Of a stretch of 64,000 bases of DNA, positions 58,831 through 64,000 are shown one piece after another. Below the pieces are notes generated by a model, which was given only the letters and a program-made list of their open reading frames with translations, searched no databases and was not told the origin of the DNA. The DNA comes from Pandoraea capi (GTDB taxonomy: Bacteria; Pseudomonadota; Gammaproteobacteria; Burkholderiales; Burkholderiaceae). The position numbers were made by a program, and so were the translations under genes. Numbering within the stretch: position 1 is the stretch's first letter; each line of letters opens with the position of its first letter. Location: contig NZ_CABPRV010000005.1 in assembly GCF_902459735.1 (NCBI RefSeq), forward strand, positions 186,001 to 250,000, given 5' to 3'.

Positions 58831-60189
58831 ATGGCTAACGATACCGGGCGCACCCTGATTTACGCCTCCCGAAAGCACAGCGACGGATTGCTGTCGTTCC
58901 TGGGAGAGCAAGGCTGGCAGGTTGTGCCGGCCAAGAGCGCCAGCGACGTCGGTCGCATTCTCAATCCGGGGGTCACCAGCGCAGCACTCATCGACCTGGC
59001 GAGCGGTTATAGCGACCGCGAGATGGGCGCGTTCGAGTCCTGCATGCAGCCGGCAACCGTCGGCTGGGTTGCCGCGACAAATCCCGAACAACTCACGACG
59101 ACGTCGATCCGACGGCTCATTCGTGACTATTGCTTCGACTACGTCAATGTCCCTTGTACCAACGATCAGCTCGCGCATTCGATCGGGCACGCATGGGGCA
59201 TGGCGTCGCTGTCGGAAGTGCCGATCATCACGCCGCAAGTCGGTGGCGATCAGGAGATGGTCGGCACATGCGAAGCGATGCAGCAGCTCTTTCGCACCAT
59301 CCGTAAAGTCGCCAATACCGACGCCCCGGTGTTCATTTCGGGCGAGTCGGGGACCGGCAAGGAACTGAGTGCCGTAGCGATTCACGAGCGCTCCTTGCGT
59401 GCCAAGGGGCCATTCGTCGCGATCAACTGCGGCGCCATTCCGCCACATCTGATGCAGTCCGAACTATTCGGCTACGAACGGGGCGCTTTTACGGGCGCGA
59501 ACGCACGTAAGGTCGGTCGCGTCGAGTCGGCGAACGGCGGCACGCTGTTCCTCGACGAAATCGGCGATCTGCCCATCGAGAGTCAGGCGAGCCTGCTGCG
59601 TTTCCTGCAGCAAGGGGCGATCGAGCGTCTCGGCGGTCACGAAGTGATTCCGGTCAATGTCCGAATCATCTCGGCAACGCACGTCGATCTGGAAACTGCC
59701 GTGAAAGAGGGACGTTTCCGCATGGATCTATTCCACCGTCTGTGCGTGCTTCGGGTGGATGAACCGCCGCTGCGCGCACGTGGCCAGGACATCGAGATCC
59801 TTGCGCATCATGTGCTGCAACGCTTCAAAGGCGACAACCATCGCAAGATCCGTGGCTTCACGCAATGCGCGGTTCAGGCGATGTATGAATATCACTGGCC
59901 GGGCAACGTGCGCGAGTTGATCAACCGTGTGCGCCGCGCCATCGTGATGGCCGATAGCCGCATGATTTCGGCCAAGGATCTTGACCTCCTGCCATGGGTG
60001 CCGACACTGGTGCGCACGCTCGAGGAAATTCGCGCGGAGGCCGAACGAACGGCCATCGAGCAGGCGTTGCTGCGCCACTGTCACCGTTTGACGGATGTGG
60101 CCGCAGAGTTGGGAATTTCGCGCATTACGCTGTACCGCCTCATGTGCCGGTACGGATTGCGCGGTGACGAATCGGGCGTGCCGGCCTGA
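58831..60189 (+). CDS. Sigma-54-dependent activator, VpsR-like
   Basis: A bacterial enhancer-binding protein of 452 residues. The N-terminal part (1-120, [20 protein letters not shown]) resembles the degenerate receiver of VpsR-like regulators rather than a phosphorylatable one; I do not see the usual Asp/Lys set. The AAA+ domain has Walker [14 protein letters not shown], the sigma-54 contact loop ERGAFTGAN and Walker [10 protein letters not shown]. The Fis-like HTH is [20 protein letters not shown]. Homologues in Vibrio and Burkholderia respond to c-di-GMP and switch on matrix genes. A terminator follows and a -24/-12 promoter lies 660 bp downstream. Confidence 0.92.
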
Positions 60190-60210
60190 TATCTTCTGGC
60201 GAAGAGAGGG

Positions 60211-60248
60211 CGACCGTCCTGTGATGAGCAGGGCGGTCGTTTCTTTTT
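60211..60248 (+). terminator. Intrinsic terminator after the VpsR-like gene
   Basis: CGACCGTCCT (60211-60220) pairs with AGGGCGGTCG (60230-60239) with one T-G wobble, followed by TTTCTTTTT. Confidence 0.88.
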
Positions 60249-60766
60249 GGGGTCCTGAAGATTGCGCAGTTGATGTTTCTCCGAAGCGCTTCCCATCTGT
60301 GTGTGCAACGCGCATTTCTCCCTTCGATTTTCTCCCTGTCCTCGCGTTTCGCGACCCCTGCCATCGTCAATAACGACGGGCGATTCCGGCATTTTCTCTG
60401 CTGGTCGACGCCGCCGTCGCGTCGTACGCAATGCGTGGCCTCCCTCGTTGGAAGTGTTTCGAAAAGGCCCGCTGCCTTCGGCGCCGATTCGAAAAAATCG
60501 CAGGCAAGGGTTGTCCCGCACGCACATCAAAGATGAAACATCCGGGGCCTGTCGCGCCGTCGCGATCACTTCGCCCGAATGTGACTGCTCCATGTCGTAT
60601 TCGTCGATCGCTCTCAATCCGCCGCAAAAGTGTCATGCGAAACCCTTGCAAACAGGGCGTCTGCGACATGCGTCGCTACTGACGCCGATATCGTTCGCAG
60701 TTCGGAATGTTTGCGAAGTGCGTCGATGACGTGACAGCCGGGGACGGACCGGGCCCACGTATCAAT

Positions 60767-60783
60767 GCTGAAACGTTTTCAGC
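60767..60783 (+). promoter_or_regulatory. Candidate enhancer (upstream activator) site
   Basis: GCTGAAA-CGT-TTTCAGC is a perfect 7-bp inverted repeat, 67 bp upstream of the -24 element. This size and place suit a dimeric Fis-type activator such as the neighbouring VpsR-like protein. Binding is inferred, not shown. Confidence 0.55.
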
Positions 60784-60849
60784 GACCCGGCCGGATCCCC
60801 GTGTTGGTCGAAAAAATTTCCGTCAATGTTTTCAACCACTTAAGCCGGG

Positions 60850-60865
60850 TGGCACGGAAGTCGCT
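60850..60865 (+). promoter_or_regulatory. Sigma-54 (-24/-12) promoter
   Basis: TGGCACG (60850-60856), 4 bp, TCGCT (60861-60865). The invariant GG (60851-60852) and GC (60863-60864) are separated by exactly 10 bp, and only one base of the extended consensus differs. Transcription should start near 60876, 19 bp before the first gene and just before its ribosome site AAGGAGG. Confidence 0.85.
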
Positions 60866-60894
60866 TTATTGGTCCGGGCAAGGAGGACAAAGCG

Positions 60895-61461
60895 ATGCGA
60901 ATTCTCACCACCGAAATGCAGTACCGCGTACGACAAGGCGCAAGCGCTCTGAGCGCAGCCATCGTCGTGACGCTCGGACTGTGCGCCGCACCGGCACAGG
61001 CGCAGGACGTCTCGCGCGCCGCCTTCATGCAAGTGGCGATGCTCACCGGATCGATGGTGCCGGCCTCGTTCTCGACGCCGACGCTGCCGGCAGCGCAGAT
61101 CTCCGACGCCGATGTCGGTCTCGTGATGCCGACGGCCTCGGTCGCGCCGGTGAGCGACAGCGCGGCGGCACCGGCAGCGGAACAAACCCCGGTGGTCGCC
61201 GGTAACGACGACAGCCAGAGCGTTGGCGCTTCAGGAATGCCGCTTGCCGCAGCCCGAATCGACGACGAACAACTCGGAAGCCAGCGCGGCCGCAATTTGC
61301 AGGGCGCTGCGATGGTCAAGTCGCCTGGGATGGCGATCGCCAACGGCGTGACGTTGTGGGACGAACTGCCGGGTGGTATTGCCCCGACGCCGCGTCCGCA
61401 ACAACTGTCGAACGGCGTGGGCAACGTCCAGGTGACGCGTGTGACCTATACCACGCGGTGA
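60895..61461 (+). CDS. Secreted protein of unknown function, first gene of the sigma-54 operon
   Basis: A 188-residue exported protein. ATG 60895 follows AAGGAGG at 7 bp. The signal peptide runs ASALSAAIVVTLGLCAAPAQA. The mature part is Ala/Ser/Pro-rich and then has a distinct motif IDDEQLGSQRGRNLQG near residue 120, of a kind I recall in secreted proteins beside amyloid-like genes, and a C-terminal NGVGNVQVTRVTYTTR. It has no long repeats. Perhaps a chaperone or accessory factor; function unknown. The next gene starts 5 bp later. Confidence 0.8.
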   Translation: MRILTTEMQYRVRQGASALSAAIVVTLGLCAAPAQAQDVSRAAFMQVAMLTGSMVPASFSTPTLPAAQISDADVGLVMPTASVAPVSDSAAAPAAEQTPVVAGNDDSQSVGASGMPLAAARIDDEQLGSQRGRNLQGAAMVKSPGMAIANGVTLWDELPGGIAPTPRPQQLSNGVGNVQVTRVTYTTR

Positions 61462-61466
61462 TCGAC

Positions 61467-61973
61467 ATGACCCAATTCTCTCTCTCGCCTGCGGTCCTCG
61501 CCACGATGCTCGTGGCGCTGACCCCGGCCATGATCCCCGGTCAGGCGAAGGCCGAACCGGCGACGCCGGGCGATCTGGTGATCGAACGCAACATCGGCCC
61601 GCAGATCGCCTACCGCGGCCTGCCCCGTGAACAGAATCCGATCGGCATCGCCGTCCCGGCTTTCCCGACGGGGCCGTTCAATACGGCAATGGGCGCCGTC
61701 AGTCAGGTGACGGATGGTGAGCTCACGGGCCGCGCCAATGCCGGCCTCGTCACGAGTTCCGTGCAGTCGGGCATCAATCCGGTGATGGGCGTGCTGGTCG
61801 GTAACGCTCGCGGCGGCAACGGCCTGAACACCACTAACGGCGTCGGCGGCGGCTTTGGCGCAGGCGCCGGTGGCGGAGGCGGTATCGGCAGTATCGGCAC
61901 GCTCGTCCCGTCGGTCATCAACTCGGCGCTGGCGCCGCTCACGACGCTGGGTGCAGCAGGAGCCGCCAAATGA
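61467..61973 (+). CDS. Secreted Gly-rich protein of unknown function
   Basis: A 168-residue exported protein (signal MTQFSLSPAVLATMLVALTP to GQAKA). The mature N-terminus has PGDLVIERNIGPQIAYRGLP and QNPIGIAVPAFP, patterns that look family-specific; the C-terminal half is Gly-rich (GNARGGNGLNTTNGVGGGFG) and ends in a hydrophobic tail. It overlaps the next gene by 4 bp (ATGA), so translation is coupled. Possibly an outer-membrane-side accessory of the amyloid-like proteins; this is a guess from context. Confidence 0.8.
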   Translation: MTQFSLSPAVLATMLVALTPAMIPGQAKAEPATPGDLVIERNIGPQIAYRGLPREQNPIGIAVPAFPTGPFNTAMGAVSQVTDGELTGRANAGLVTSSVQSGINPVMGVLVGNARGGNGLNTTNGVGGGFGAGAGGGGGIGSIGTLVPSVINSALAPLTTLGAAGAAK

Positions 61974-62605
61974 GCGCAAATCGCAATGTGATGCGCGCCA
62001 TCGCGCTGGCTGCGGCAGTGGCTGCCGTCGCCGGAACGTGTCAGGCGCAAGACCTTTGGCTCGTGAGCGGTGAGCTCGCCGGCACGCACGCCACCGTCGA
62101 AAGCGGCGTGGCTGTGGGGGTATCGGGCGCACTGGGCGTGAATCAGGCCGCCGGTGTGAACAACGCTCAGGCCAACAGCGCGCTCATTGCCAATGGCGGC
62201 AGTGTGACGACCGGCATGTCGAGCACGAATCAACAGGCACTCGTCACGACGACGACGGGCGCCGCGAGCGCCGCAATTCAGGGCAACGCATTTTCAGGCA
62301 CCTCGGGGCTGACGCAAGTCAACCAGGCGAGCGGTGCCGGCAATCTTCAACGCAACGCGACCGTCATTGTGACTGGCGATGCGTCTGGAGTGGCGAGCGT
62401 ATCGGATACGGCACTATCCGCTGCGATCTCCAAGGGTGGCCCGGCTGGCCACCACAACCTCAACGATCAGTTCCGCACGGCGTCGATTTCCAGTGACGCC
62501 TTCCGTGGAGCCAGTGGAGTGTTGCAGGTGAACCAGTCGGCTGGGATAGGCAATGTAACCGCAAATGTTTTTGTGCTCCGTCCCCCGGCGGGCACATCTT
62601 TTTAA
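61970..62605 (+). CDS. Amyloid-like repeat protein (FapB/curlin-type), small subunit
   Basis: A 211-residue exported protein (signal ALAAAVAAVAGTCQA). Three imperfect repeats occur near residues 52-73, 110-133 and 180-203: SGALGVNQAAGVNNAQANSA, SGLTQVNQASGAGNLQRNAT and SGVLQVNQSAGIGNVTANVF. The conserved spacing of Asn, Gln and Gly in VNQxAGxxNxxxN recalls the beta-stacking repeats of Fap and curli subunits. Thr/Ser/Ala-rich linkers separate them. By size it could be the nucleator (FapB/CsgB role). No export partner is visible in the window. Confidence 0.75.
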   Translation: MSANRNVMRAIALAAAVAAVAGTCQAQDLWLVSGELAGTHATVESGVAVGVSGALGVNQAAGVNNAQANSALIANGGSVTTGMSSTNQQALVTTTTGAASAAIQGNAFSGTSGLTQVNQASGAGNLQRNATVIVTGDASGVASVSDTALSAAISKGGPAGHHNLNDQFRTASISSDAFRGASGVLQVNQSAGIGNVTANVFVLRPPAGTSF

Positions 62606-62635
62606 CTGGGTAACTCTCTCGTCAAGGAGATGGTC

Positions 62636-64000
62636 ATGAAAACGAAAGCAATTGCAGCGGCTGCACTGCTGGTAGCAACGGGTACCGCCATGGCGTCGCC
62701 CCATCACCAGCAATATAGCTTCTCGTTCATCGGCAACGAGACCAACGTTCTGAACCTGGTCGGTATTTTCGGTCTGATCGGGATTCGCGGCTGCGTCACG
62801 GTGGATAACACCGGCAACGCCGTCGTGCAGAACAACCAGAAGGTCGACGTGCATCACGTGAACCTGACGGGCCCGCTGCTCGGCTCCTATGTCACGGGGC
62901 ATGTGACGACGGGCGTCAATTCGAAGACCACCACGGTCTCGAACACGGGCGGCGCGTATCTGATCGGCGGCGCAACCACCACGTCGTATAACAACACGAC
63001 GTCGTGGGTGAATGCCGAGGCCAACGGCCACCTGAACACCAGCCAGTCGTTCCAGGCCGGTGCCGGGTATGTCGCAGGCCAGTCGAGCTCCGGTTCGGGC
63101 GGCTTCGTGACCGGTGGCGGGTATCAGTATTCCAACGTGGCAGCAGCCGGCGGCATCATCGGTGGCGGCATCATCCCGCTGCCGGGTGGCCTCGCACTGT
63201 ATGGCGGCTACATCGTTGGCAATGCCGGTGCCGGTCAAGGTTCCGCCTGGGGTGGCTACGCTTACGGCCAGCAGTCGCAAGCGGCCGGAGGCTTCCTCGC
63301 CGGTGGCTTCCTGAACACGCAGAAGAGCTTCGATGCCGCATTCCATGGTCTGTTCAACGCAGGTCAGGCTTCGGTCTCGAGCGAGTCGATCGCGGCGGGC
63401 GCACTGTGGGGCTTCTCGAACACCTACACGAAGGCCACCACGTGGCAGAAGGGCGCGCTCACGCTCCACGTCAATACGGCAACGTATCAGACGATGGGCG
63501 CAACGCTCGGCAACGGCGCGCTGGCTAACGCCAACGGCAACGTCGGTGTGAACGTGGCAGCAGGTGCCGATAACGCTCAGGCCAACAACGTCGCCATCGC
63601 CTCGCTCAACGCGCAGCCGGTGTATGCGTCGGCCCAGGTGTTCTCGAACCAGTCCTCGCAAGGCTCGGCCAAGATCTCGCAGTTCATGGTCAACGCCAGC
63701 GTGGGTGACGGTGCACTGGCAGGGGCGACCGGCAACGTCGGCGTGAACGTGGCTTCGGGTGTCGGCAACGTGCAGGGCAACAACCTGTCGGCGGCTGTCT
63801 CGCAAGGCGCGCATGGCTGGTACAAGGGCGGTGCTGCCAACTCGACGGCACAAACCGACCAGGTCGCAGGCATGAAGGCCTCGGGTGACTTCGTCGCCAA
63901 TGCAGCACTTGGCAACGGTGCCCTGCAATGGGCCAGCGGCAACGTGGGTGTGAACGTGGCAGCCGGTATCGGCAACGTTCAGGCCAACAGCCTCGCCATC
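62636..64000 (+). CDS. Large amyloid-like / adhesin repeat protein (truncated by window end)
   Basis: At least 455 residues; no stop is reached. AAGGAG is 6-7 bp before ATG 62636. Signal MKTKAIAAAALLVATGTAMA, then a Gly/Ser/Asn/Ala-rich body with GGYIVGNAGAGQGSAWGGYA. From residue 300 the motif GNVGVNVAAGADNAQANN recurs: at 301, 366 (GNVGVNVASGVGNVQGNN) and 435 (GNVGVNVAAGIGNVQANS), each after a GNGAL-like stretch, 65-69 residues apart. The same motif class is in the preceding gene, so the two probably copolymerise or share an exporter. Its likely role is the main fibre or adhesin; function is inferred. Confidence 0.78.
   Translation, partial: MKTKAIAAAALLVATGTAMASPHHQQYSFSFIGNETNVLNLVGIFGLIGIRGCVTVDNTGNAVVQNNQKVDVHHVNLTGPLLGSYVTGHVTTGVNSKTTTVSNTGGAYLIGGATTTSYNNTTSWVNAEANGHLNTSQSFQAGAGYVAGQSSSGSGGFVTGGGYQYSNVAAAGGIIGGGIIPLPGGLALYGGYIVGNAGAGQGSAWGGYAYGQQSQAAGGFLAGGFLNTQKSFDAAFHGLFNAGQASVSSESIAAGALWGFSNTYTKATTWQKGALTLHVNTATYQTMGATLGNGALANANGNVGVNVAAGADNAQANNVAIASLNAQPVYASAQVFSNQSSQGSAKISQFMVNASVGDGALAGATGNVGVNVASGVGNVQGNNLSAAVSQGAHGWYKGGAANSTAQTDQVAGMKASGDFVANAALGNGALQWASGNVGVNVAAGIGNVQANSLAI

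Follow-up and report, generated by a model that had tools for sequence, protein, structure and literature searches.

A Fap functional-amyloid operon of Pandoraea capi with an additional first gene and a candidate FapD processing site in FapE

Does the packed run of secreted-protein genes at the end of a Pandoraea capi sequence encode a new amyloid system or a known one, and which of its products might be processed? The sequence analysed (the window) comprises 64,000 nucleotides, positions 186001-250000 of contig C5 in a genome of 5.85 Mb; the cluster runs past its end, and the missing genes were found in the downstream flank, which was read as piece L003. The order is a 452-amino-acid activator gene, X1, fapA-, fapB-, fapC-, fapD-, fapE- and fapF-like genes, X2 on the opposite strand and a LuxR-type gene. 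By homology the cluster is a Fap functional-amyloid operon with the order X1-fapABCDEF, and X1 (the LWDE family) is, on the same kind of comparison, an unnamed, conserved extra component of many fap operons. We are fairly confident of the whole explanation, in which the operon would be governed by a VpsR-type/sigma-54 switch and FapD would cut FapE and probably X1.

The Fap genes and their control

The original prediction had recognised four closely packed secreted-protein genes, two of them with Fap repeats, and had held that the subunits match no named amyloid system. The four genes and the two repeat proteins (FapB-like and FapC-like, Table 1) were borne out, whereas genes 2-4 of the four and the next three genes matched FapA-F in the same order (NCBIfam); this order, together with the flanking FapD, FapE and FapF, identifies the system as Fap. 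The family searches that had been proposed thus placed three of the four proteins (FapA, FapB and FapC) and left X1 without a family. As had been noted, no exporter lies in the window itself, and extension past 64000 to look for a C39 peptidase or FapF-like pore brought both to light directly downstream. The FapC repeats start at residues 292, 357 and 426 of 459, giving the three repeats expected of a Fap system, and the protein aligned with the solved FapC chain (E 6.5e-13). FapF residues 143-443 aligned with the solved FapF pore barrel 5o65 (E 3.9e-80), and a coiled coil was seen by eye. FapD matched Pfam Peptidase_C39 (E 2.2e-26) and could be aligned with a solved C39 domain across the Cys, His and Asp regions; one of the C39 domains aligned with it is deposited as a double-glycine protease domain. 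All six fap genes are open and conserved across the genus, and the ten-gene order is kept in 17/17 Pandoraea loci of the named collection, in which the relatives found with FapF likewise numbered 17, all Pandoraea, with P. anhela LMG 31108 first.

The VpsR-like sigma-54 activator of the original prediction was confirmed by Pfam matches to VpsR (E 1.1e-21) and Sigma54_activat (E 7.9e-69), accompanied by an AAA lid and a Fis-type helix-turn-helix, by a match to the solved VpsR chain 7v2b (E 2.1e-63) and by an intact GAFTGA loop. Vibrio cholerae VpsR (PF20161 family) has the same N-terminal VpsR and sigma-54 activator domains, but the predicted target here is an amyloid operon. The -24/-12 promoter that had been proposed also stood, as TGGCAC-N6-TCGC at 60850-60864 (GG at 60851-60852 and GC at 60863-60864, spacing 10 nt), with TCGC where the sigma-54 consensus has TTGC, so that a GG-N10-GC site and a GAFTGA activator occur together at the locus; AAGGAGG and then the X1 start lie 3' of the site. 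Its score was reached by about 1/200 shuffles of its own 500-base region (p 0.01), and the site hardly varies, if at all, across the 20 upstream regions aligned from the genus. A sigma-54-like site with p<=0.05 was found 5' of the first gene in 46/59 fap operons (200 shuffles each) as against 1/57 before fapD, 6/58 before fapF and 4/71 before activator genes (100 shuffles each; Fisher p 2e-27, relatedness ignored). The conserved block upstream of the promoter (Table 1) is a candidate activator-binding site. Activator genes were present in 51/61 fap regions (32/35 in the family and 19/26 outside it), some regions ending at a contig edge, and of the 30 activators scanned (71 found) all 30 had the sigma-54 domain and 27 also showed VpsR. 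Two copies occur in 20/35 family fap loci; in these 20 (among L039-L072, e.g. L040) one copy lies divergently before X1 and one after fapF.

In P. fluorescens PF07 the -24/-12 promoter of fapA-E was mapped by 5' rapid amplification of cDNA ends and loss of RpoN or of the neighbouring BrfA lowers fap expression (PMC9207406), and BrfA senses cyclic di-GMP (PMC13101488). The Fap carriers listed in PMC6173800 include Pandoraea. Both the occurrence of Fap in Pandoraea and, from P. fluorescens, its control by RpoN and a neighbouring cyclic di-GMP-sensing activator are therefore already published, which makes the regulatory idea of the original prediction right but known in kind. An amyloid-fibre operon of sigma-54 type beside its activator is backed by homology and conservation, and RpoN dependence and fibre formation of the Pandoraea locus are predicted from that conservation and from the PF07 work (PMC9207406). 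The locus shares with Pseudomonas Fap the six genes in order, the C39 peptidase FapD, the FapF pore, three FapC repeats, the -24/-12 promoter and the adjacent sigma-54 activator (PMC9207406, PMC13101488). It differs in the extra first gene X1, which forms one run with the six genes, in the paralogue X2 and in the activator gene, which lies upstream in the same direction, whereas brfA lies downstream and reversed. The FapB model matched 35/120 genomes of the family, 12/300 of the order and 18/369 of the class; published surveys report fapABCDEF or fapBCDEF synteny in >90% of 1602 clusters (PMC12822426) and, in 2013, a set confined to Beta-, Gamma- and Deltaproteobacteria (PMC3792158).

X1, a conserved family at the head of the operon

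X1 of this locus matched no Pfam or NCBIfam family at E<=1. Among 29 members of its family no match at E<=0.1 recurred in more than one (the best single match, LdpA_C, had E 2.2e-4 in one member), and the X1 profile found nothing in the PDB below E 0.38. AlphaFold models of X1 and FapE, each built from ten close Pandoraea sequences, had a mean predicted local distance difference test score (pLDDT) of 43 and 32, respectively. Alignment of the 29 members shows a single Leu and LWDE as the only invariant positions. With one sequence as the query, X1 turned up in 16/120 family genomes: fapB was present in 14 of them, fap gene pieces in another (L018), and the last was a weak match with stops (L020). 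By profile it was found in 41/61 fap loci (30/35 in the family, 11/26 outside), while both held-out loci lack it (total 41/63), and in 41/41 loci fapA or fapB directly follows it. Across the class the profile matched 11/369 genomes, nine of them among the 18 that are fapB-positive (Fisher p 8e-12, relatedness ignored); the remaining two pointed to the peptidase/pore systems described below. No description of an X1-like gene was found in the part of the open-licence literature on fap operons that was searched, and neither the X1 family nor the conserved FapE/X1 motif with its RGG counterpart was found described in it.

X2, which shares LWDE with X1, is a diverged X1 paralogue 3' of fapF with the LuxR-type gene beyond; L003 and L039-L072 include ten fap loci from the genus, and both genes are present in 10/10. 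L018 (genome G037) has fragments of fapC and fapF a short distance apart, next to X1 and an activator gene, as if the operon were decaying.

A candidate FapD site in FapE and X1

C39 peptidases classically cleave after GG, and the leader LSxxELxxIxGG of bacteriocin C39 substrates resembles a block that is conserved directly after the signal peptide in FapE N-termini, [LV]-x-D-x-x-L-x-x-x-[RT]-G-[KR]. The corresponding element of X1 is [LIV]-[DS]-D-x-x-L-x-x-x-R-G-x. Numbered from the candidate cut, FapE has G at -2 with K or R at -1 in 56/56 sequences, L or M at -7 in 56/56, D at -10 in 52/56 and Y or F at +1 in 47/56. The 51 X1/X2 sequences all have L at -7 and either G or A at -2, and 50 of them have D at -10. 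The position of the element was picked by a rule favouring the counted letters. Both FapE proteins of the held-out loci L101 and L102, neither of which has X1, carry the element (LTSAGLAGIRGK and LSESRLSNIRGK; FapE total 58/58), as does Aeromonas caviae FapE from a plasmid record (ELADGELAHLRGRY). The counts leave out L013 and L014, which duplicate L068 and L062, and L018 with its fap pieces.

A matrix made from FapE only, without the 5 of 34 non-redundant FapE sequences that lack the seed pattern, reached p<=0.02 against shuffles in all 34/34 FapE (own row left out) and in 28/38 X1/X2, as compared with 1/29 FapA, 3/33 FapC, 2/22 FapD, 4/25 FapF and 0/23 activators, all non-redundant. At a score >=10 it picked, from 5482 open reading frames, 56 FapE, 31 X1/X2, one FapB and three unassigned.

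The ending is not one of the canonical double-glycine type (GG, GA or GS): FapE has G-K/R, and X1 has G or A followed by R, G, T, A or others. We infer that the FapE element works like a double-glycine leader without being a canonical one, and that FapD would cut FapE after its G-K/R; FapD probably cuts X1 too. The proposed site is the FapE element, which is in register with the RGG of the related systems. FapD has the C39 fold family and Cys region in common with the C39 peptidases of bacteriocin ATP-binding cassette transporters (PCAT1 and others). It differs in having no attached transporter and, in its presumed substrate, in the K or R at -1 of FapE; by eye it carries a signal peptide, so that unlike those peptidases it would be periplasmic. 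Two other proteins deserve mention. FapA contains look-alikes such as VSDADLTQAHGS, but only the one FapA noted above passes the matrix threshold, and at another place, so that no claim is made for it. In FapF of several Burkholderiaceae RGRG closes the coiled coil, and RGG stands there in L100, L124 and L125, yet few FapF pass the matrix; FapF as a FapD substrate is a lead.

Published work fits this proposal in part. The active-site Cys of FapD is required for FapC export, and the FapD target is called unclear, Fap proteins being said to lack canonical C39 sequences; FapE alone shows complete N-terminal processing, its N-terminal peptides being absent (PMC5557850). In section 8 of PMC6173800 the target is stated as undetermined, and a 2025 review gives FapD as thought to process FapE and the periplasmic region of FapF (PMC12822426). 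No description of a FapD cut site in FapE was found in the open-licence literature searched, from which many journals are absent.

As we picture the system, the adjacent activator, probably answering cyclic di-GMP, would bind upstream and switch on sigma-54 RNA polymerase at the -24/-12 site. The products would reach the periplasm via Sec, where FapA would keep the subunits soluble; FapF would form the outer-membrane pore, while the major subunit FapC and the minor subunit FapB would exit and polymerise into matrix fibres. FapD, as a periplasmic C39 peptidase, may license this export through cleavage of FapE, and probably of X1, at a leader of degenerate double-glycine type.

Table 1. Features of the locus (positions in the window unless given for flank L003)
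Feature	Position	Strand	Basis
VpsR-type sigma-54 activator (enhancer-binding protein), 452 amino acids	58831..60189	+	Pfam VpsR, Sigma54_activat, AAA_lid_14, HTH_8
Terminator-like inverted repeat and T run, 3' of activator gene	60211..60248	+	By eye; kept in 18 Pandoraea
Conserved block ~95-120 bases 5' of expected start	60757..60781	+	Alignment of 18 Pandoraea intergenic regions
-24/-12 (sigma-54-type) promoter	60849..60865	+	Score against shuffles; genus conservation
X1, secreted, unnamed, 188 amino acids; motif IDDEQLGSQRGR and LWDE	60895..61461	+	Conserved family, no family match at E<=1
fapA-like, 168 amino acids	61467..61973	+	NCBIfam chaperone_FapA E 3.6e-5, under cut-off
fapB-like, 211 amino acids	61970..62605	+	NCBIfam FapB E 2.3e-23, under cut-off
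fapC-like, 459 amino acids, three Fap repeats	62636..64000, stop at window-equivalent 64015	+	NCBIfam FapC E 4.5e-18
fapD	L003 6069-6779, start 68 bases past window end		NCBIfam FapD E 9.3e-59
fapE	L003 6792-7541		NCBIfam FapE E 1.7e-14
fapF	L003 7866-9197, start 1865 bases past window end		NCBIfam FapF E 3.8e-112
X2	L003 9408-9878	minus	Shares LWDE with X1
LuxR-type gene	L003 10244-10996		

Elsewhere in the same genome (contig C7, L038:9161-9961, minus strand) a secreted protein with a pair of Fap-type repeats stands alone, no other fap gene being recognised alongside, and the FapB model has similar lone matches in further genomes of Pandoraea and the Burkholderiaceae.

Related systems and alternative explanations

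The FapD model matched 43/369 class genomes at E<=1e-20, 16 of them fapB-positive. A related set of 22 loci was drawn from 19 of the 27 other genomes and from second copies in two fapB-positive genomes, and 14/22 (L099, L100 and L103-L114) have a close FapF-like pore at a locus that lacks a typical fap operon; in 7/14 of these close relatives the fetched stretch contains a VpsR-type activator. In all 14/14 a protein with RGG in the pattern [LIVM]x4[LM]x3RGG is encoded within 600 bases of the peptidase gene. The pattern, which it should be noted was written after inspection of these loci, occurred in 16/176 nearby open reading frames and 3/1024 elsewhere, shuffles of all giving 3.7 (Fisher p 2e-11). 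On two Cupriavidus megaplasmids (L124 and L125) RGG precedes the peptidase and recurs within the pore protein; L125 has it, in addition, in a small protein that follows the peptidase. In a tree of 44 peptidases, for which 27 of the 61 fap loci served as representatives, the 28 beside K/R-type FapE and the 16 beside RGG proteins formed two groups separated by one change; as peptidase and neighbour are inherited together this split is not independent proof. The putative FilB/FilC pilus (NCBIfam NF050078 and NF050079) likewise has a stand-alone C39 peptidase and a FapF-like pore, but its models match FapD and FapF more weakly (1.3e-37 and 1.6e-12), and the FapD and FapF models fit better both here and in two related loci tested. 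L099 (G581) and L100 (G559) combine FapD, FapF, X1 and an activator with repeat proteins unlike FapB/FapC, of QDNTIKDNAFQ type in L099 and GNDLLSDNTT type in L100; the subunits of L099 and L114 match the FapB model weakly. On balance we lean towards a wider reading, in which FapD would be a periplasmic double-glycine-type peptidase recognising the FapE element, with X1 another substrate, and Fap one branch of a larger set of Sec-fed C39-peptidase/FapF-pore systems, half of the close ones found with a VpsR-type activator, in which small secreted proteins would be processed at RGG and the exported repeat proteins would differ from one system to another.

Several results weigh against these proposals. 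The -1 residue of X1/X2 varies (R 17, G 12, T 10, A 7 and others 5; n=51), and a single strict FapD specificity therefore does not suit all of them. X1 is missing from 22/63 fap loci, no Pseudomonas FapE was found among the five genomes from the order of G671 or in the plasmid records, and eight more distant peptidase loci with 414 open reading frames had no RGG of the pattern. The FapE matrix also picks 16/40 FapB, so that part of its signal may be a general feature of Fap repeats. This last point leads to the alternative that we take most seriously, although we judge it unlikely, namely that D-x-x-L-x-x-x-x-G of FapE/X1 is no cut site and instead has a role in structure or in docking to FapF, perhaps as what is left of a Fap repeat. 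The FapB/FapC repeats do look alike, their start G-x-A-L-x-x-A-x-G-N being similar; some FapC (the three above) pass the matrix with FapB, and a loose pattern matches 12/57 FapC and 23/71 activators. FapB nevertheless scores far lower (median -0.6, as against 10.8 for X1 and 31.2 for FapE), the element directly follows the FapE signal peptide, and RGG in the same register accompanies the C39 peptidase in every close relative, all of which argues against this alternative.

The VpsR of Vibrio cholerae acts with sigma-70, and control sites reached p<=0.05 in 11/186 cases, so that the activator might work at a sigma-70 promoter or on other genes with the -24/-12 site idle. We consider this very unlikely given the intact GAFTGA loop, the enrichment and conservation of the site and the need for RpoN and BrfA in fap expression in PF07 (PMC9207406). 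That every Fap match scores under the NCBIfam equivalog cut-off would suit an unrelated adhesin, or a Fap relic no longer making fibres, but six consecutive genes match FapA-F in the Fap order, each of them open and kept throughout the genus, and FapC has three repeats, which makes that the least credible of the alternatives by some way.

Fap fibres stiffen biofilms. If the preferred explanation, a switched Fap operon with FapD cutting FapE and probably X1, is right, X1 would be an added component overlooked by six-gene models of the operon. FapE is already suspected as a FapD target, and a specific conserved site makes the question testable by one peptide or point mutation. The RGG systems suggest that periplasmic C39 processing with a FapF-type pore may be an export route broader than Fap.

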